NCBI GenBank assembly: GCA_916048095.2
Contig: OU696588.1
Location: forward strand, 6,248,501-6,312,500
Origin: Sacculina carcini
Lineage: Eukaryota > Arthropoda > Thecostraca > Sacculinidae
Length of the DNA stretch: 64,000 nucleotides
Direction: 5' to 3'
Below the pieces are notes generated by a model. That model did not search any database and was not told where the DNA came from. It saw only the letters and a program-made list of their open reading frames with translations. Positions 10,364 through 64,000 of the stretch are shown here, piece by piece; position 1 is the stretch's first letter, and the number at the start of each line of letters is the position of its first letter. Position numbers and translations under genes: made by a program.

Positions 10364-10498
<135 letters not shown>

Positions 10499-13400
10499 CT
10501 GGACTGAACAGATCAGTCTTGTTCAGTACTTCACCGGAGAAGGTTGTATCTGTGGCCCGGTTCCTCAGTTAGGTTAGGTGTGTATTTAAAAGTGCTCGCG
10601 CGATTTTGTGAGCGTGTCCGGTCGCGTGTTTACACGTTTACCGTGACACCTGTCATCATCAATCATCGCGGTGGCCGTTACGCAGGACGACTGTGCGTGT
10701 AAATACCCCAGTGTGCCAGTGTGTTTATTGTGCCAGTGTTTCCCCTTTTAGTCATACCCACCCTTCTAGTAATCGACCACCCACATTGTGCCAGTGAAAA
10801 TCGTGTATATTGAATAATGTGTGTATATAGTTTCGTGTAATTGTAGCCTGTAATGACGCAAGAGCTACATCATTTGTCGTGCGCTGTTTGTGACTCTACA
10901 AACGGAGTGCGACAGACGCACAATGATGTGGCTCTCTGCAGAGCATGCGACATATTCTGGCGGCGACACCAGGACAGCGGCGTGCGGGAGAGACAGTGCG
11001 ACCGTGGAGGCAGCTACCGTCTCACTCCGCACGACAGATCGTGCGCACCATGCCGTCTAGCCCGTTGCCAAGCTGTCGGTATTCAGGCCGAGCGGGCCCC
11101 CAGCGCAGACACGGGATCCGACCCCGCGAAGCCGTGTCATCACTGCGGCACTGCCAACAGCAGAAGGCGGGTGATTTCCTGCGCGCAATGTGAGCGGTTA
11201 TTCCACCTCACTTGCGTGGGAATCACCCGGGCACAAGCCGACGTCTTGCCGGTGTGGCTTTGCGGTGCGTGCATGCAGAGCCGCGGTGCGGATGGCGACG
11301 TGGACCCGCCAGCCGACGTTAACACCACTACTCCGACAGACCTGGCTGCGGCGCTTGCTGAGCTCAGACAGCAACGCCGAGTGCGTCAGCATGTCCCACG
11401 TGCGCTGCGTCATCGGTTGGCAGCCGACCTCGCACAGCACATCACGGCGGCTCTGGAACAGCGCTCCCTCTCGGCCTGGTGGAAGCTGCTGTCATACGCC
11501 TTGACGGGCCCGATCAGCTCCGACGCAGCAGTCAGGAAGAAGCGGGGCACACAAAACCGAGGGCGATCACAGCACGACGAAAACAAGGCCAGATCCCGCG
11601 GCGTCAGAGCCAAGTGCGCTGATGGAGACATTGGCGCAGCTCTCCGCCTGCTGACATCCAGCGACTGCTTGGCCGGGGACGACGAGGCAGTGACCGCCGA
11701 GCTCGAGCGCAAGCACCCGCCTGCATTGCCGGACGAGCAGCTGCAGATGCATGACGCCGAAACACTGCCGATTTTTGAGGAGCACGAGATCCGCTCCGTC
11801 GTGCACTCGATGCCCAAAGGTTCATCGGGAGGACTGGACGGAATACGGCCGCTACATCTCCGCCAGCTCATCGCGCCACAGACGGCTGAAGCGGGTGCCC
11901 AGCTGCTGAAGGCACTGACGCAGCTGTGCAACTGTTGTGTACAGGGTCGCATTCCGGACTTCGTGCTCGGCGCATTCTACAGCGCGCGACTAATCGCATT
12001 GCGCAAGAAGTCCGGCGGGCTGCGCCCAGTAGCCATCGGCAGTGTTTTACGGCGCCTCGCCAGCAAACTGATCGCTGGCAAAATGACGAGCGCAGTCGCA
12101 CAGCAGTTGCGCCCCGTTCAGCTCGGAGTGGGGTGCAAGCTGGGCTGCGAAGCGGCCGTGCACGCCACGCGCGCTTTCGTCAATGAGGCTAACGGTCGGC
12201 ATGGTCACATTCTGCTGAAGCTGGATGTGACCAACGCCTTCAACACCCTCAGTCGGCGCGCGCTCCTCGACGAAGTCGCCCGTCGTTTCCCCGCAGCATT
12301 GCCGCTCGTCCAGTAGGCGTACGGCCAGCCAACCCCACTATACCACGGCACCACTCGAATCTGGTCCTGTCGCGGTGTACAGCAGGGAGACCCGCTCGGG
12401 CCCATCTTGTTCGCCCTCGCCGTCGACCCAGTGGCCCAGTCTCTCCAGTCGCCATTAAACCTGTGGTACCTGGACGACGCCACACTGGCAGGCCCCAGGG
12501 AAGTGGTGCTTGCAGACGTCAGCCGCCTGATCCCGGCCCTCGGCAGCATCGGCCTCGAGCTAAACGCCGGCAAATGTGAAGTTGTCAGTCTTGGTCCAGC
12601 CACTGACACACGACCAGCAGATACCGAAGACTCTAACGCGGCCGCCACATCACTGCTTGCCTCGGCCACATTCACGCCGCTCTCCGACCTCCATCTGCTC
12701 GGCGCACCAGTGCAGACTGGCGGCATTTCAGATGCGCTCAACAAAATCGAGCACCAAACGTCCCTGCTGATCCAGCGCTCAGTCAACATCGGCTCGCACC
12801 CGGCGCTTTTTTTCTCAGTAGGTACGCATCGGTTCCGCGGGCAATATATCTCCTGAGAGCAGCGCCGGTTTACCAGGCCCGCGAACAAATGGGTGACATC
12901 GACGAGCAGCTGAGATCGGCCATCAGCGATTGCTGCAATGTCGCCATGTCAGACGCACAGTGGCTGCAGGCTTCTCTTCCGGTCCGCCACGGAGGTATCG
13001 GAGCCAGACGGCTGAGCGACGTGGCACTACCTGCCCACATCACCTCGCTGGAAGCTACCAGAGACCTGGTCTGTCTCATTAACCACCGCACAAGCGGTGA
13101 CAGACCCTGCTCTCTGGTGGCAGCCATCGAGGAGTTCGTGGACACCATGTGCCCGGACTTCAGCACGAGCGAGCCACTGTACCAGCGCCACCTAGACTAC
13201 CGATCTTCCTCCGTCCGCCAACAACATCTCCTCGGAAGCGCGAACCAGCTGTGCCGAGCCCGTCTCCTGGCCGCGGCCGCTCCTCACAGTGGCGCTTGGC
13301 TGTCAGCGCTGCCTGTCGCCAGTCTCGGCTTGCTGCTGCCAGACGAAGCCGTCCGAGTCGGCGTGGCGTTGCGACTTGGTGCCGCAGTGCAAGAGACGCA

Positions 13401-13990
13401 CAGGTGTCGCTGCGGTGCCACAACTGACAGGTTGGGCCACCATGGCCTCTCCTGCAGTCGCAATGCCGGCCGCCTGCCACGCCACACGGCGCTGAACAAC
13501 ATCATTCGCCGCAGTTTGGCGTCGGCAGGAATCGCCGCAGTGCTGGAGCCACGAGTCCTGGACCGCGGCGACGGCCGCCGACCGGACGAAATCAACGTGC
13601 TCCCGGTGCGGCACGGCAAGTCGCTGCTCTGGGATGTGACCTGCGTCAACACGTTCTGTGACACACATCTGCTGGACGGCGCGGTCACTCCAGGGGCAGC
13701 AGCGCAGGCGGCGGAAGTCCTAAAGCGGCGGCGCTACTCAGAACTGTGCCAGCGGTACGATTTCGTGCCGCTGGCCATCGAGACCGCCGGCGTGATGGGG
13801 GCATCCCTGGACGACTTCGTGAAGCTCCTGGGCGGCAGAATCAGCGAGCGTTCAGGGGAGCCGCGAGAGACGGCCTGGCTTCGGCAGCGAATAAGCCTGG
13901 CCGTCATTCGTGGCAACGCCGCCTCCATTGTTTTATAGTAGTATTGTGAATATGTGTACGCGTTTGTAAATATATTTCTTTGTGTCTCAA
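10499..13990 (+). mobile_element. LINE-R copy 1: RLE-type non-LTR retrotransposon in (CA)n
   Basis: The element has a ~350-bp 5' UTR, one long ORF (10853-13938), a ~50-bp 3' UTR ending TGTGTCTCAAAAAA, and (CA)n on both sides. A second copy lies at 60505-63698 on the minus strand. Its coding part is clearly richer in GC than the neighbouring elements, suggesting a different origin or codon bias. Confidence 0.9.
10853..13938 (+). pseudogene. LINE-R ORF copy 1: NR-like zinc finger + PHD + RT + RLE, two lesions
   Basis: About 1028 codons. Residues 10-77 read as a nuclear-receptor-type C4 zinc-finger pair: C-x2-C-x15-C-x2-C with CRACDIFWRR, then C-x5-(Y)-x8-C-x2-C-x4-C ending CRLARCQAVGI. The second-module Cys at residue 55 is Tyr here but Cys in copy 2. 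Residues ~95-140 form a C4HC3 PHD finger. The RT contains GGLDGIRPLHL, KLDVTNAFN, GVQQGDPLGP and the catalytic YLDD near residue 539. The C-terminus has a CCHC knuckle (C-x-C-x8-H-x4-C, from 13405) and a PD-(D/E)xK-like block, RPDE...LLWDVTC, at ~13576-13645, which is the restriction-like endonuclease. Breaks: TAG at 12314-12316 (CAG in copy 2) and a 1-base deletion near 12806. Confidence 0.88.
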
Positions 13991-14082
13991 AAAACACACA
14001 CACACACGCACACACACACACACACTCACACACACACACACAAACATACACATGCACAGATACAAAGACACATACATACACC
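13991..14082. repeat. (CA)n-rich microsatellite, 3' flank of LINE-R copy 1
   Basis: Imperfect CA repeats (with CG, CT and ATA variants) directly follow the short A-run that ends the element. Confidence 0.9.
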
Positions 14083-46831: not shown

Positions 46832-47656
46832 ATGGATCAGCGGTCTTGTTGTGAGGAGACTGGCGGCGAGATTTCTTGTGGCCTGTGTGGAACGCTGTTA
46901 CACAGGAAGTGCGTGGGATTCACGGCCACTCTGGAGATAATGCTGCTCAAAAGCGGTGTTTTCTGGCATTGTCGATTCTGCCATGAATCACACAAAAATG
47001 ACAGTGCTGGCAATCAACACGCTGGCGAAACAAGAACAGAACCGGAAAATTGTCCTATATCCGTGGATTTGGATTCGAGAATTGACCGGAGGGTTGAGAT
47101 AGCCCTCAACCTCTTCAAGCAGGAGATTTCCTGCGCTGCTGCTGGACACAACACTTTTACTGCTGTGACATCATCGTCGACTCCGGACCGGTCAAATAGC
47201 GACCAGAGTGAGTCTGACAGCGACGTGGATCCTGTTAACCGGAATTATGCCGGAAAATGGACCACAGTCACAAGAAGGAAGAAGACACCGAGAAAAAAGA
47301 AGGACACTTCTCAGTTGAATCATGCTAATTCCAACAAGAAGAAGTCGTCGGGAACATCTGTAACTAGTGAGCTGGCGACGGTGTCTCGATCATCAGTCGT
47401 CAGTGTTTTTGTGACGCGATTTCACACTGGTGTGACGTGTGAAGATCTCGTCGATCACCTGTCGACTTCGTTGGCGATTGATGCCAACAAAGTATCCGTT
47501 GAAAAATTGAAGACAAGGCACGACTCCTACAACAGCTTTAAGGTGTCGTGTCAGTGCACCGACAGCGCAGCAGTTCTGCAGTCGGAGATCTGGTCGAGGG
47601 GCTGTTTCTACAGGAGCTGGCGTCGACCTCGGCAAACTACTAAAAAGCTGGATTGA
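46832..47656 (+). CDS. LINE-2 ORF1 (PHD-like zinc finger, RNA-binding-like)
   Basis: 274 residues from ATG 46832. The first ~55 residues have the Cys/His spacing of a PHD-like finger: C-C...C-x2-C-x4-H-x2-C...W-x-C-x2-C (ISCGLCGTLLHRKCVGF, WHCRFC). A Ser/Thr-rich and very basic middle (RRKKTPRKKKD) follows, then a C-terminal fold (VSVFVTRFHTGVTCEDLVDHL) that resembles the esterase-free ORF1 end seen in CR1-like elements; its function is inferred as nucleic-acid binding. It ends at TGA 47654-47656, followed by CTA, and ORF2 continues in the same frame. Confidence 0.8.
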   Translation: MDQRSCCEETGGEISCGLCGTLLHRKCVGFTATLEIMLLKSGVFWHCRFCHESHKNDSAGNQHAGETRTEPENCPISVDLDSRIDRRVEIALNLFKQEISCAAAGHNTFTAVTSSSTPDRSNSDQSESDSDVDPVNRNYAGKWTTVTRRKKTPRKKKDTSQLNHANSNKKKSSGTSVTSELATVSRSSVVSVFVTRFHTGVTCEDLVDHLSTSLAIDANKVSVEKLKTRHDSYNSFKVSCQCTDSAAVLQSEIWSRGCFYRSWRRPRQTTKKLD

Positions 47657-47659: not shown

Positions 47660-49253
47660 CAGTCGAATTTGCATGCTGATAAAGCACAGACATCATGTGC
47701 CTTTTGGAATATGCGGTCAGTGAGGAAACAATTTTCGCTGGTTAATGATATCCTTACTGATGGCGTAGATTTGTTTTGTATTGTTGAGTCTTGGCTTGCT
47801 GATGGAGAGAGCGCAGCATTTTCTGCATCTCTTCCGAATAACTTTGCAGCCATACATTATTGCCGTGATACAACAGGTGGGGGTATTGTTTTTGTGTACA
47901 ACACAAGTTTTGTTGTACAAAATATATCCCTATCACTGTCTATCACCACATTTGAATATGTTTGTGTGCGTGTTGGAAACCAAGGACATGACACTAATTT
48001 ATGTGTGCTCACTATCTATAGACCTGGTTATACCTCTGGCTCTGTATTTATTGAGGAATTTTTTGCTGTAGTGGAATATCTACTTGTAAGATTTAATGAT
48101 AATTTGTACATATGTGGAGATTTCAATTTGTGGATAGACCAGCCCCATTTGAAGGCCCATTCACAATCATTTTTGGAAAATATGGAGCTGAATGGATTGA
48201 CGAATCATGTAAATAGTCCAACTCATGCTCATAATCACATACTAGACTTGCTTATCTCGCCCATCACTCGTAATAATGCAATTCATGAAGTAATGGTGAG
48301 TCCAATTGATAGAAATGCATCGGACCACAGCCTCATCAGATTTAATTTAGCTATTCCTATTCCTCAGAAAATACGAAAAACAATATCTTTCTATGACTAC
48401 GACCACATTGACACTGAAAATTTAACACACGGACTCTGTGAAAAATTTCACCTTATCAACTACTGCTTCCTCCCAATAGATACATTGTACACATACTTCT
48501 ATCAAAACATTTGTGAAATTCGTGATCGATGTGTTCCATATATCTCAAAACATGTTAAACTACATGAATCTGCTCCCTGGTTTAATGGCTCACTAAACCA
48601 ATTGAAGAGAGTGAAACGGCAATGTGAACGCCGCTGGCACCGCTCTCGTTCACTTGAACACTGGACCGAGTTTTGCAGTGCTAGGTCCAGCTACACTCAT
48701 AAGATCACTGAGACCAAACAGGCGTACTACAACAAAAAAATCTTAGATTCGCAGCCGGATACACTCTGGAAAGTACTGAGCAACCTACTTGGTAATAGGC
48801 CCAGTCCAAATACGCATCCCGAGAATGAAGCTCACATGCCGGATAGTTTCCGTATTTTTCTTCAAGAAAAAATCATTAGATTGCATGGTTCTATCCAGGT
48901 TTCGGACAACAAAAGATATGCAAGTATTACACCTGACTGCTCTCAGAGCCTCACTTGTTTCCAGCCAATTGATCACAACTCCTGTCTGCAACTAGTCAAC
49001 AACACTAGTATGAAGGTCAATCTCTTGGATCCGATTAAATATAGCCGTATCAAATCGTTTGTAGTGCTCATTGTGCCGTTTATTGTCTATCTTGTAAATA
49101 AAAGCTTTGTTCATAATAAGTTTTTAGCATCGAAAGAAGCAATTATTACTCCTATTTTGAAAAGAACTGGACTGGACGCGAAGTGTCTGAACAATTATAG
49201 GCCTGTGTCGCAAATTCCATGGGTATCAAAGCTCCTTGAATCGGCTATGTATG
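47657..49253 (+). CDS. LINE-2 ORF2, endonuclease and RT start (cut by Gypsy-E)
   Basis: An APE-type endonuclease occupies the first ~230 codons: FWNMRSVRKQ, DLFCIVESWL, YRPGYTSG, ICGDFNLWID (catalytic Asp/Asn) and NASDHSLIRFNL (catalytic Asp-His). A linker with APWFNGSLNQLKRVKRQCERRWHR follows, then the RT beginning: FLASKEAIITPILKR, NYRPVSQIPWVSKLLESAMY. It is open throughout up to the Gypsy-E insertion at 49253. It nicks the target and primes reverse transcription in the host nucleus (family knowledge). Confidence 0.88.
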
Positions 49254-49687
49254 TGTGGTTTTGATATATTATCTTGTCATATTGTTGTAGTTGAAGGTTT
49301 TCGTTATGTACATGTGTGTGCGCATGTGTGCGTGTGTGCGTGTGTGCATGTGTGTGTGTGTGTGTGTGCTTGCATTTGCTGGCGTAGTGCTCCGCATCGT
49401 GTATGTACGTCTGTGTGCGGGTGTATGTTTGCACAATGCACTCGTTGCAAGGTGCTGACGAGGTATCAGGTGGCAGCGATGCGTTTTGTTTATCTAGTGT
49501 CGTGTTGATGGGAGACAGTGCGGTGTTGAATCTCGGCGTGAAGAGAGAAGTGTGTGCGAGTGTGGTGGAGATATCGTTGTGATACGCATATTGTATTTTA
49601 ACTGTGTAGTTTGTGTTGCTGGCTCAGTGGAGTCCGTGTTTACATTGTGCATTTGTGTTCACCATTACTTCAATATATTCAACCACA
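49254..49687 (+). repeat. Gypsy-E 5' LTR
   Basis: TGTGGTTTTG...CAACCACA. Contains a (TG)n run near 49316-49368 that is two bases longer than in the 3' LTR; otherwise only a few substitutions. Confidence 0.92.
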
Positions 49688-60430: not shown

Positions 60431-60504
60431 CGCGCACATGTGTATGTGTGTGTGTGTGTGTGTGTGTTTTTTTTTTGTTTGTTTTTTTTTTTTTTTTTTT
60501 TTTT
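60431..60504. repeat. (TG)n plus T-run, 3' flank of LINE-R copy 2
   Basis: On the minus strand this reads an A-run (element tail) followed by (CA)n. Confidence 0.9.
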
Positions 60505-63500
60505 TTGAGACACAAACAAATATATTTACAAACGTGTACACATATTTACAATACTACTATAAAACAATGGAGGCGGCGTTGCCACGAATGACGGCCAGGC
60601 TTATTCGTTGTCGAAGCCAGGCCGTCTCTCGCGGCTCCCCTGAACGCTCACTTATTCTGCCGCCCAGGAGCTTCACGAAGTCGTCCAGGGATGCCCCCAT
60701 CACGCCGGTGGTCTCGATGGCCAGCGGCACGAAATCGTACCGCTGGCACAGATCTGAGTAGCGCCGCCGCTTTCGGACTTCCGCCGCCTGCGCTGCTGCC
60801 CCGGGAGTGACCGCGCCGTCCAGCAGATGTGTGTCACAGAACGTGTTGACGCAGGTCACATCCCAGAGCAGCGACTTGCCGTGTCGCACCGGGAACACGG
60901 TGATTCCGTCCGGTCGGCGGCCGTCGCCGCGGTCCAGGCCTCGTGGCTCCAGCACCGCGGCGATTCCTGCCGACGCCAAACTGCGGCGAATGATGTTGTT
61001 CAGCGCCGTGTGGCGTGGCAGGCGGCCGGCATTGCGACTGCAGGAGAGGCTATGGTGGCCCCACCTGTCAGTTGTGGCACCGCAGCGACACCTGTGCGGC
61101 TCTTGCACTGCGGCACCAAGTCGCAACGCCACGCCGACTCGGACGGCTTCGTCTGGCAGCAGCAAGCCGAGGCTGGCGACAGGCAGCGCTGACAGCCAAG
61201 CGCCACTGTGAGGAGCGGACGCGGCCAGGAGACGGGCTCGGCACAGCTGGTTCGCGCTTCCGAGGAGATGTTGTTGGCGGACGGAGGAAGATCGGTCGTC
61301 TAGGTGGCGCTGGTGCAGTGGCTCGCTCGCGCTGAAGTCCGGGCACATGGTGTCCACGAACTCCTCGATGGCTGCCACCAGAGAGCAGGGTCTGTCACCG
61401 CTTGTGCGGTGGTTAATGAGACAGACCAAGTCTCGGGTAGCTTCCAGCGAGGCGATGTGGGCAGGTAGTGCCACGTCGCTCAGCCGCCTGGCTCCGATAC
61501 CGGACCGGAAGAGAAGCCTGCAGCCACTGTGCGTCTGACATGGCGACATTGCAGCAATCGCTGATGGCCGATCTCAGCTGCTCGTCGATGTCACCCATTT
61601 GTTCGCGGGCCTGGTACACCGGCGCTGCTCTCAGTAGGTATATTGCCCGCGGAACCGATGCGTACCTGCTGAGAAAAAACAGCGCCGGGTGCGAGCCGAT
61701 GTTGACTGAGCGCTGGATCAGCAGGGACGTTTGGTGCTCGATTTTGTTGAGCGCCTCTGCAATGCCGCCAGTCTGCACTGGTGCGCCGAGCAGATGGAGG
61801 TCAGAGAGCGGCGTGACTGTGGCCGAGGCAAGCAGTGATGTGGCGGCCTCGTTCGAGTCGTCGGTCTCTGCTGGTCGTGTGTCAGTGGCTGGACCCAGAC
61901 TGACAACTTCGCATTTGCCGGCGTTTAGCTCGAGACCCATGCTGCCGAGGGCCGGGATCAGGCGGCTGACGTCTGCAAGCACCACTTCCCTGGGGCCTGC
62001 CAGTGTGGCGTCGTCCAGGTACCACAGGTTCAATGGCGACTGGAGAGACTGGGTCACTGGGTCGACGGCGAGGGCGAACAAGATGGGCCCGAGCGGGTCT
62101 CCCTGCTGTACACCGCGACAGGACCAGATTCGCGTGGTGCCGTGGTACAGTGGGGTTGGCTGGCCGTACGCCTGCTGGACGAGCGGCAATGCTGCGGGGA
62201 AACGACGGGCGACTTCGTCGAGCAGCGCGCGCCGACTGAGGGTGTTGAAGGCGTTGGTCACATCCAGCTTCAGCAGAATGTGACCATGCCGACCGTTAGC
62301 CTCATTGACGAAAGCGCGCGTGGCGTGCACGGCCGCTTCGCAGCCCAGCTTGCACCCCACTCCGAGCTGAACGGGGCGCAACTGCTGTGCGACTGCGCTC
62401 GTCATTTTGCCAGCGATCAGTTTGCTGGCGAGGCGCCGCAAAACACTGCCGACGGCTACTGGGCGCAGCCCGCCGGACTTCTTGCGCAATGCGATTAGTC
62501 GCGCGCTGTAGAATGCGCCGAGCACGAAGTCCGGGATGCGACCCTGTACACAACAGTTGCACAGCTGCGTCAGTGCCTTCAGCAGCTGGGCACCCGCTTC
62601 AGCCGTCTGTGGCGCGATGAGCTGGCGGAGATGTAGCGGCCGTATTCCGTCCAGTCCTCCCGATGAGCCTTTGGGCATCGAGTGCACGACGGAGCGGATC
62701 TCGTGCTCCTCAAAAATCGGCAGTGTTCCGGCGTCATGCATCTGCAGCTGCTCGTCCGGCAATGCAGGCGGGTGCTTGCGCTCGAGCTCGGCGGTCACTG
62801 CCTCGTCGTCCCCGGCCAAGCAGTCGCTGGATGTCAGCAGGCGGAGCGCTGCACCAATGTCTCCATCGGCGCACTTGGCTCTGACGCCGCGGGATCTGGC
62901 CTCGTTTTCGTCGTGCTGTGATCGCACTCGGTTTTGTGTGTCCCGCTTCTTCCTTGCTGCTGCGTCGGAGCTGATCGGACCCGTCAAGGCGTATGACAGC
63001 AGCTTCCACCAGGCCGAGAGGGAGCGCTGTTCCAGAGCCGCCGTGATGTGCTGTGCGAGGTCGGCTGCCACCCGATGACGCAGCGCACGTGGGACGTGCT
63101 GACGCACTCGGCGTTTCTGTCTGAGCTCGGCAAGCGCCGCAGCCAGGTCTGTCGGAGTAGTGGTGTTAACGTCGGCTGGCGGGTCCACGTCGCCATCCGC
63201 ACCGCGGCTCTGCATGCACGCACCGCAATGCCACACCGGCAAGACGTCGGCTTGTGCCCGGGTGATTCCCACGCAAGTGAGGTGGAATAACCGCTCACAT
63301 TGCGCGCAGGAAATCACCCGCCTTCTGCTGTTGGCAGTGCCGCAGTGATGACACGGCTGCGTGGGGTCGGATCCCGTGTCTGCGCTGGGGGCCCGCTCGG
63401 CCTGAATTCCGACAGCTTGGCAACGGGCTAGACGGCATGGCGCGCACGATCTGTCTTGCGGAGTGAGACGGCAGCTGCCTCCACGGTCGCACTGTCTCCC

Positions 63501-63698
63501 CCGCACGCCGCTGTCTTGGTGTCGCCGCCAGAATACGTCGCATGCTCTGCAGAGAGCCACATCATTGTCCGTCTGTCGCACTCCGTTTTTAGAGTCACAA
63601 ACAGCGCACGACAAATGATGTAGCTCTTGCGTCATTGCAGGCTACAATTACACAAAACTATATACACACATTCAATATACACGAATTTCACTGGCACA
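60505..63698 (-). mobile_element. LINE-R copy 2 (minus strand), 5'-truncated in its UTR
   Basis: Same element as 10499-13990. It starts, on the minus strand, at the position equivalent to 10787 in copy 1 (ATTGTGCCAGTGAAA), so only ~65 bp of 5' UTR remain. It ends TTGTGTCTC plus an A-run. (CA)n lies on both sides in the same orientation as for copy 1. Confidence 0.92.
60557..63635 (-). pseudogene. LINE-R ORF copy 2: NR-like zinc finger + PHD + RT + RLE, one deletion
   Basis: Starts ATG 63635. It keeps all nine Cys of the nuclear-receptor-like finger pair (the copy 1 Tyr55 is Cys here), the PHD finger, the RT with YLDD and GVQQGDPLGP, the CCHC knuckle (CRCGATTDRWGHHSLSC) and RPDG...LLWDVTC. 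It has the CAG codon where copy 1 has a stop. An 8-base deletion at about 61500 (CCACGGAG in copy 1) shifts the frame between RT and the knuckle. Otherwise the two copies are very similar, so together they define an intact ancestor of about 1030 residues. Confidence 0.9.

Positions 63699-63782
<84 letters not shown>
63699..63782. repeat. (TG)n microsatellite, 5' flank of LINE-R copy 2
   Basis: A pure TG tract of about 80 bp, that is (CA)n on the element's sense strand. Confidence 0.97.
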
Positions 63783-63784
<2 letters not shown>

Positions 63785-64000
63785 GTTGGTTTTATGCTTG
63801 TATGTGCTTGTGTGTGTGTGTATGGGTGTGTTGGTGTGATGTTTTGGTCATACATGGTGTGAATAACACCTGTTTTGAAACGAAGAAGGATTAGTGGCTG
63901 TCAGAGGTGTTTTTCCACCTGTCTGTCCGCTTATACCTGTATATATGTGCGTGTGGTCCTTTTGCCCATACATCATGTTCACCTGCCGAAGAATGCCGAA
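63783..64000. other. Unassigned TG-rich DNA at the window edge
   Basis: No gene or element end could be supported. Confidence 0.5.

Follow-up and report, generated by a model that had tools for sequence, protein, structure and literature searches.

In the R2 element R2Bm, an N-terminal zinc finger and a Myb domain bind an upstream motif, the restriction-like endonuclease (RLE) binds bases at the cut, and nicking stops when both N-terminal domains are deleted (PMC10499050; this and the three papers that follow are cited here and below for part of their text). Two kinds of long interspersed nuclear element (LINE) are described with a microsatellite target: the Togen families of fish, which have an RLE, are related to NeSL/HERO and are specific for (TG)n (PMC4640811), and Mino, a member of the R1 clade that inserts into AC repeats (PMC3124438), R1-clade elements having an endonuclease of the apurinic type (PMC4640811). 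PHD domains are common in CR1/L2 LINEs and have been suggested to steer integration there (PMC4120745). Here we describe an RLE LINE family of Sacculina carcini, found as two copies in a 64,000-nucleotide stretch of contig OU696588.1 (positions 6,248,501 to 6,312,500; hereafter the window), whose open reading frame (ORF) of about 1,020–1,030 residues encodes, in order, a nuclear-receptor-type DNA-binding domain (DBD), a PHD finger, an N-terminal extension, a reverse transcriptase (RT), a thumb/linker, a CCHC finger and an RLE. We think it probable that this is an RLE LINE with a captured receptor DBD, which targets (AC)n by docking there.

The N-terminal domains and their relatives

Nuclear-receptor DBDs are parts of animal transcription factors, in which the base-contact residues are the E-G..K-G of CEGCKG. 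Copy 1 (10853–13938, plus strand) and copy 2 (63635–60557, minus strand) are 97% identical over 3.2 kb, and in both the zf-C4 profile (PF00105) aligns to residues 9–78 over 68 of its 70 positions and above its curated cut-off of 21.1 bits (24.7 and 25.2 bits, respectively, in the long ORFs; 30.3 and 31.7 bits on 86-residue pieces). A previous sequence-only reading of the window had described a start of C-x2-C-x15-C-x2-C with CRACD(I/V)FWRR and an end CRLARCQAVGI, which we find in both copies, and a second-module C-x5-C in both, which holds for copy 2 but not for copy 1: there residue 55, a zinc-ligand position that is Cys in copy 2, is Tyr, as had been overlooked. Residue 55 is Cys in all 31 readable copies of the same subfamily (A, below; of 40 fetched copies, those whose longest ORF includes the usual start), and all eight zinc-ligand cysteines are present in 30 of these 31, in copy 2, in L050 of subfamily B and in two proteins from other sources, P0002 and P0011. 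The zf-C4 cut-off is likewise exceeded in L011, in the subfamily B copies L050 and L051 (30.4 and 29.7 bits), in P0002 (34.3 bits) and in P0011 (56.3 bits, E 4.4e-15).

Chance was assessed with a profile built from eight receptor DBDs only, which gave 31.3 bits for an intact A copy and 35.8 bits for a B copy; none of 500 cysteine-preserving shuffles of either reached the real score (best shuffle 19.6 and 13.6 bits, respectively). The predicted structure of the copy 2 DBD matches the receptor DBD fold in the PDB; the DBD within the full-length P0011 model is of low confidence. Identity to the same eight receptor DBDs is 22–35% for the window domain and 36–44% for that of P0011, the second module of which has receptor spacing. 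The first-module loop is 13 residues long in receptors, 15 in subfamily A, 12 in B and 14 in P0002 and P0011. Pfam scans of the element proteins found no ligand-binding domain, and PHD, RT and RLE stand after the DBD instead. That two proteins from other sources carry the domain together with an RT in one ORF, one of them at E 4.4e-15, argues for homology of this N-terminus to receptor DBDs. The sequence-only reading had proposed capture of such a domain or convergence on one, and the following checks that it named came out in favor of capture: the profile match, the fold match, and the finding of this N-terminus fused to an RT elsewhere (P0002, P0011 and subfamily B). It would have given the idea up had there been no significant profile or structural match or had the N-terminal part belonged to a different transcript from the RT; the matches are significant, and a separate transcript is rejected at the ORF level, since a single ORF encodes both DBD and RT in copy 2 and in 26 of the 40 fetched copies.

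The PHD finger occupies residues 95–140 in both window copies, as had been noted, and scores 27.8–31.5 bits (curated cut-off 24) in copies 1 and 2, L011, L050 and L051; P0002 also has one. This part of the predicted model resembles histone-reading PHDs, and its role is perhaps docking on histone tails. The RT and RLE that were said to follow it are likewise present. RVT_1 lies above its curated cut-off at residues 384–579 of copy 2 and is split in copy 1 over two ORFs, each piece scoring under the cut-off, and both copies have the CCHC finger (C-x-C-x8-H-x4-C) and the PD...D motif. With the R2-like whole fold of P0011, these features place the element among the RLE non-long-terminal-repeat retrotransposons. 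In copy 2, DBD, PHD and RT lie within a single unbroken 740-aa ORF (61413–63635, minus strand). Both window copies are nevertheless broken, since in each the endonuclease part is in a separate ORF in a frame other than that of the first, and copy 1 has an in-frame stop in addition.

A protein search with the RT region gave 456 proteins; among the best 120 of these, from which relatives were drawn, P0002 and P0011 have zf-C4 and RT in one ORF. In a quick 120-row tree, made from copy 2 and the best 120 proteins less P0102 (too short), the three DBD carriers fall within one 13-row clade (SH-aLRT [Shimodaira–Hasegawa-like approximate likelihood ratio test] support 100), which includes P0008, a protein of the snow crab Chionoecetes opilio. 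A more careful tree of 24 rows, subfamily B included, has a 16-row clade (100/100) with DBD carriers in both of its branches (100/98 and 93/92). The ancestor of the element probably took its DBD from a receptor gene, and probably once, before this clade split. In a DBD tree with animal receptors, a further check proposed in the sequence-only reading, support for a grouping of the LINE domains is 92/93, with a long-branch warning, and 68/84 after subfamily B is added; the domain is too short for this tree to name the source receptor.

Further carriers were sought in several ways. A profile of LINE and receptor DBDs picked out none among 121 fetched proteins except the nematode receptor P0121, a protein search with residues 1–160 of copy 2 gave no match at E 0.001 among 85 candidates, and one with residues 1–165 of P0011 found, besides P0011, only a nematode receptor (E 0.045). 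Viral and genome contigs were scanned as well and gave no kin except one contig at 34% identity, L001 (JAPLLI010000168.1, binned as Nitrospirae), which encodes an RT relative and is perhaps eukaryotic contamination of a metagenome bin. We also note that six proteins in a sister part of the RT tree (P0014, P0027, P0034, P0043, P0058 and P0092) combine a ubiquitin C-terminal hydrolase domain (PF00443) with an RT, and one PF00443-bearing relative is annotated in the barnacle Amphibalanus amphitrite. This domain is probably C-terminal, because five of the six proteins begin at or inside the RT region, and is probably another captured host domain in this RLE lineage. P0101, a more distant relative, has an RFX DNA-binding domain (PF02257) with RT.

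Copies in the genome and their (AC)n flanks

A search of the 264-Mb assembly (43 contigs) with the copy 1 ORF, in which 88 of 788 candidates were scored, gave at least 89 matches, at least 70 of them at 83–100% identity (subfamily A) and at least 19 at 57–60% (subfamily B). From 86 places outside the window we fetched the 40 best-scoring A copies, together with three B copies. An unbroken single ORF of 1,012–1,044 residues from the usual start is found in 26 of the 40, a share not representative of the family because the best matches were fetched. The 20 A copies of exactly 1,028 residues have a median pairwise DNA identity of 98.6% (best pair 99.94%), and such near-identical intact copies indicate that the family is young. 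Pooled over these 20, the ratio of nonsynonymous to synonymous change (pN/pS) is 0.31 for the DBD, 0.18 for the PHD, 0.51 for the RT and 0.18 for the CCHC–RLE part, against 0.73 for residues 141–290, 1.08 for the thumb-linker and 5.45 for a linker of 16 residues that follows the DBD, where there is very little synonymous change; these values are descriptive only, the pairs not being independent and no significance test applied. In subfamily B the layout of A recurs in L050 and L051; the third copy, L052, was read by eye only.

The 5′ end is reached by 24 of the 40 A copies, 16 starting exactly at CAGTCTTGTTCAG and 23 within the positions corresponding to 10513–10517 of copy 1. In the remaining 16 the alignment to copy 1 starts no earlier than position 216–368; these copies are truncated, have a different 5′ end or are masked (L013). 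By eye, L042 and L043 look like one duplicated insertion.

Both window copies have (AC)n on the sense strand at both flanks, a target and a fixed orientation that are new in this analysis and go beyond the sequence-only reading. Flanks of the 40 fetched A loci were scored for runs of at least three AC units, 12 nt or more in total, in 100 nt on the 5′ side and in 150 nt, A-rich tail included, on the 3′ side, with one masked 5′ flank and one masked 3′ flank left out of the respective counts. Of the 39 flanks counted on each side, 37 on the 5′ side and 38 on the 3′ side have AC runs, and 1 and 3, respectively, have GT runs; in the window away from the copies, AC is found in 12 and GT in 7 of 537 pieces of 100 nt. 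At 30 nt or more of AC the counts are 31/39 (5′), 28/39 (3′), 3/537 (window) and 103/699 (pieces further out in the same loci). AC is absent from the 5′ side in L024 and L048 and from the 3′ side in L034.

Where these arrays are irregular, odd units can be common to both flanks: a word of at least 6 nt is shared in 24 of 40 (a count with no random control), and long units are shared in L015, L016, L023, L028, L035, L038 and others. This recurrence on both sides argues that the element inserted into the array and did not itself produce it. The start of copy 2 lies more internally in the element than that of copy 1, yet (AC)n adjoins it; the idea that (AC)n is the element's own tail is rejected for the 5′ side, as copies with different internal starts adjoin it and irregular units stand on both flanks. 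Occurring as independent copies in one repeat type and in fixed orientation, the family belongs with the microsatellite-specific LINEs.

All three B copies have an A-rich tail followed by (AC)n on the 3′ side. At the 5′ side of L052 (AC)n is about 400 bp away, and in L051 it is absent, other sequence standing at those ends. The 5′ ends of L051 (1–1480) and L052 (1050–1480) are unlike that of L050, possibly through template switching or nested insertion, and the upstream sequence of L051 resembles, by eye, the integrase end of another retroelement.

How the target may be chosen

In the mechanism that we propose, the DBD would dock next to the cleavage site on the (AC)n/(GT)n duplex, the RLE would nick the GT strand, and the 3′ end of the nicked strand would prime copying from the A-rich RNA tail, that is, target-primed reverse transcription into (AC)n. 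The fixed strand orientation of the insertions suggests a step at which sequence is read on DNA, and the DBD is a candidate target finder because it stands at the position of the zinc finger and Myb of R2. That a captured hormone-receptor DBD has evolved into a reader of (AC)n/(GT)n and is the targeting module, with the PHD as a possible chromatin co-reader, we hold to be somewhat likely. The sequence-only reading had added that the domain was there "perhaps to find its target": a target in fixed orientation there is, and that the DBD itself reads it, and in what order the steps follow, is still something we infer.

Several observations weigh against this account. The P-box is replaced, with R-A..D-I/V in subfamily A, P-A..K-I in B, R-S..Q-V in P0002 and A-S..R-E in P0011, which fits a changed specificity and predicts none. 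In P0011 the Pfam scan finds no PHD at E up to 1, though the same cysteine pattern is aligned there. AC runs occur in 149 of 699 100-nt pieces further out in the same loci, which are thus AC-rich beyond the junctions, and in subfamily B the 5′ flank is directly (AC)n in only one of three copies (L050). Ten of the 16 rows of the clade show no DBD, a distribution that at face value calls for two changes or more; in P0005 about 50 unrelated residues stand where the domain would be. As to the ten, nine begin no more than eight residues before the DBD end or after it: P0003, P0007, P0009 and P0025 at the residue aligned with the Met that ends the domain, P0006 eight residues before it (MRRCLDAGM, still DBD-like) and P0001, P0004, P0008 and P0010 further downstream. 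The simplest reading would be one capture before the clade split, with incomplete records or, in P0005, a broken or lost domain. Finally, the endonuclease alone might choose the site.

This last point leads to the alternative that survives best, though we consider it unlikely: the DBD is real and serves RNA binding, nuclear import or transcription of the element, and RLE and CCHC finger choose (AC)n. The cited parts of the papers on Togen (RLE; PMC4640811) and on Mino (R1 clade; PMC3124438), elements with a (TG)n or AC-repeat target, speak of no receptor domain, so such targeting may not need one; the R2Bm RLE, too, binds bases at the cut (PMC10499050), and the P-box residues are unlike those of receptors and differ between lineages. 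On the other hand, the N-terminal DNA-binding domains of R2Bm locate its target (PMC10499050) and the DBD has the same position here, its zinc cysteines are kept, and its pN/pS is low. It is very improbable that DBD and PHD dock on chromatin generally and that (AC)n enrichment follows from chromatin location: the part assigned to PHDs in CR1/L2 LINEs (PMC4120745) and the likeness of the PHD model to histone readers would fit, but the flanks have a fixed orientation (37 of 39 5′ flanks carry AC runs on the sense strand and 1 carries GT runs), and the copies lie inside the arrays themselves, which chromatin alone leaves unexplained. Least probable is chance, or convergence of an unrelated double zinc module on receptor-like spacing, for which the low identity of the window domain to receptors and the non-receptor loop lengths can be cited, against P0011, which shares the RT clade and the domain position and is closer to receptors in identity, second-module spacing and E-value, as well as the predicted fold match and the shuffle controls.

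Window features and comparison with known systems

The features of the two copies are listed in Table 1. In copy 1, 14 extra bases (10500–10513) lie between (AC)n and the family's usual 5′ start. That the two copies are one duplicated insertion is rejected, as their flanks outside (AC)n do not align and their 5′ ends differ. An Rfam scan of the window gave no family at gathering score; five sub-threshold matches at about 13.8–14.1 kb, of which four resemble miRNAs and one a scaRNA, coincide with or straddle the AC repeat and are taken as noise. By eye, another window ORF (46832–47656) has a PHD-like cysteine start and is followed by an endonuclease/RT-like ORF (47669–49264), as in an ordinary PHD-bearing LINE.

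Table 1. Features of the two element copies and their flanks in the window (TRF, Tandem Repeats Finder)
Feature	Position	Strand	Basis
(AC)n array, 5′ flank of copy 1 (target DNA)	10366..10499	.	TRF; full-length copies elsewhere adjoin AC-rich arrays
Copy 1 5′ untranslated region, start CAGTCTTGTTCAG at 10514 as in full-length copies	10514..10852	+	Fetched-copy alignment
Copy 1 ORF: DBD, PHD, first RT part, 487 aa, in-frame stop at end	10853..12316	+	
Copy 1 zf-C4 DBD, residues 9–78, one zinc Cys to Tyr	10877..11086	+	PF00105 above cut-off
Copy 1 PHD finger, residues 95–140	11135..11272	+	PF00628 31.5 bits, cut-off 24
Copy 1 RT, interrupted	12002..12589	+	RVT_1 pieces in two ORFs
Copy 1 ORF: linker, CCHC finger, RLE	12889..13938	+	ORF and motifs
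Copy 1 CCHC zinc finger, C-x-C-x8-H-x4-C	13405..13455	+	Motif
Copy 1 endonuclease PD...D	13579..13635	+	Motif
Copy 1 3′ untranslated end TTTGTGTCTC and short A tail	13939..13993	+	
(AC)n array, 3′ flank of copy 1	13994..14081	.	TRF
(AC)n on minus strand, 5′ flank of copy 2 (target DNA)	63700..63831	.	TRF
Copy 2 ORF: DBD, PHD, RT, 740 aa	61413..63635	-	
Copy 2 nuclear-receptor-type DBD, all eight zinc-ligand Cys	63402..63611	-	Pfam, cysteines, predicted model vs PDB
Copy 2 PHD finger	63216..63353	-	PF00628 28.3 bits
Copy 2 RT core	61899..62486	-	RVT_1 62.4 bits
Copy 2 ORF: linker, CCHC finger, RLE, frame unlike first ORF	60557..61549	-	
Copy 2 CCHC zinc finger	61040..61090	-	Motif
Copy 2 endonuclease PD...D	60860..60916	-	Motif
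Copy 2 A-rich tail	60467..60506	-	TRF
(AC)n on minus strand, 3′ flank of copy 2	60439..60467	.	TRF

The class of element is known, as are (TG)n targeting and PHD fingers in LINEs; as far as searched, the captured N-terminal receptor module is not, and we found no report of a nuclear-receptor DBD in a LINE among the titles and abstract openings of the open-licence papers listed. CR1/L2 LINEs share a PHD domain, N-terminal in some, but belong to the Jockey superfamily, and the cited part of their description mentions no receptor domain (PMC4120745). Togen, likened here by description only, has neither receptor domain nor PHD in the text cited (PMC4640811), and Mino differs in the apurinic-type endonuclease of the R1 clade and, within the parts cited, in the lack of any mentioned receptor domain (PMC4640811, PMC3124438). 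With nuclear-receptor DBDs the element shares the two zinc modules, the helix CxAC-x-(I/V/F)-F..R, the end CRLxRCxxVG and the predicted fold; it differs in the fusion to PHD, RT and RLE, the changed P-box, the altered first-module loop and the absence of a ligand-binding domain from our scans. If the capture and docking account is true, a mobile element now finds its target with a fold familiar from animal transcription factors. A well-understood DNA-reading fold would then be linked to a clear target, (AC)n, and how LINEs choose and change targets would become testable with receptor biochemistry.

The closest overall likeness is to R2: when the whole P0011 protein is compared by structure, R2 proteins match best (E 9.9e-24, with 16–18% identity in the fold alignments). 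R2Bm and R2Tg likewise have a single protein with DNA-binding domains at its N-terminus, an N-terminal extension, RT, linker, CCHC finger and RLE, and insert at a specific target. The family nevertheless falls outside the R2 clade: where R2 has one or more C2H2 fingers and Myb at its N-terminus and a 28S rDNA target, the present N-terminus is zf-C4 and PHD and the flanks are (AC)n, and it offers a new N-terminal module for comparison with R2.
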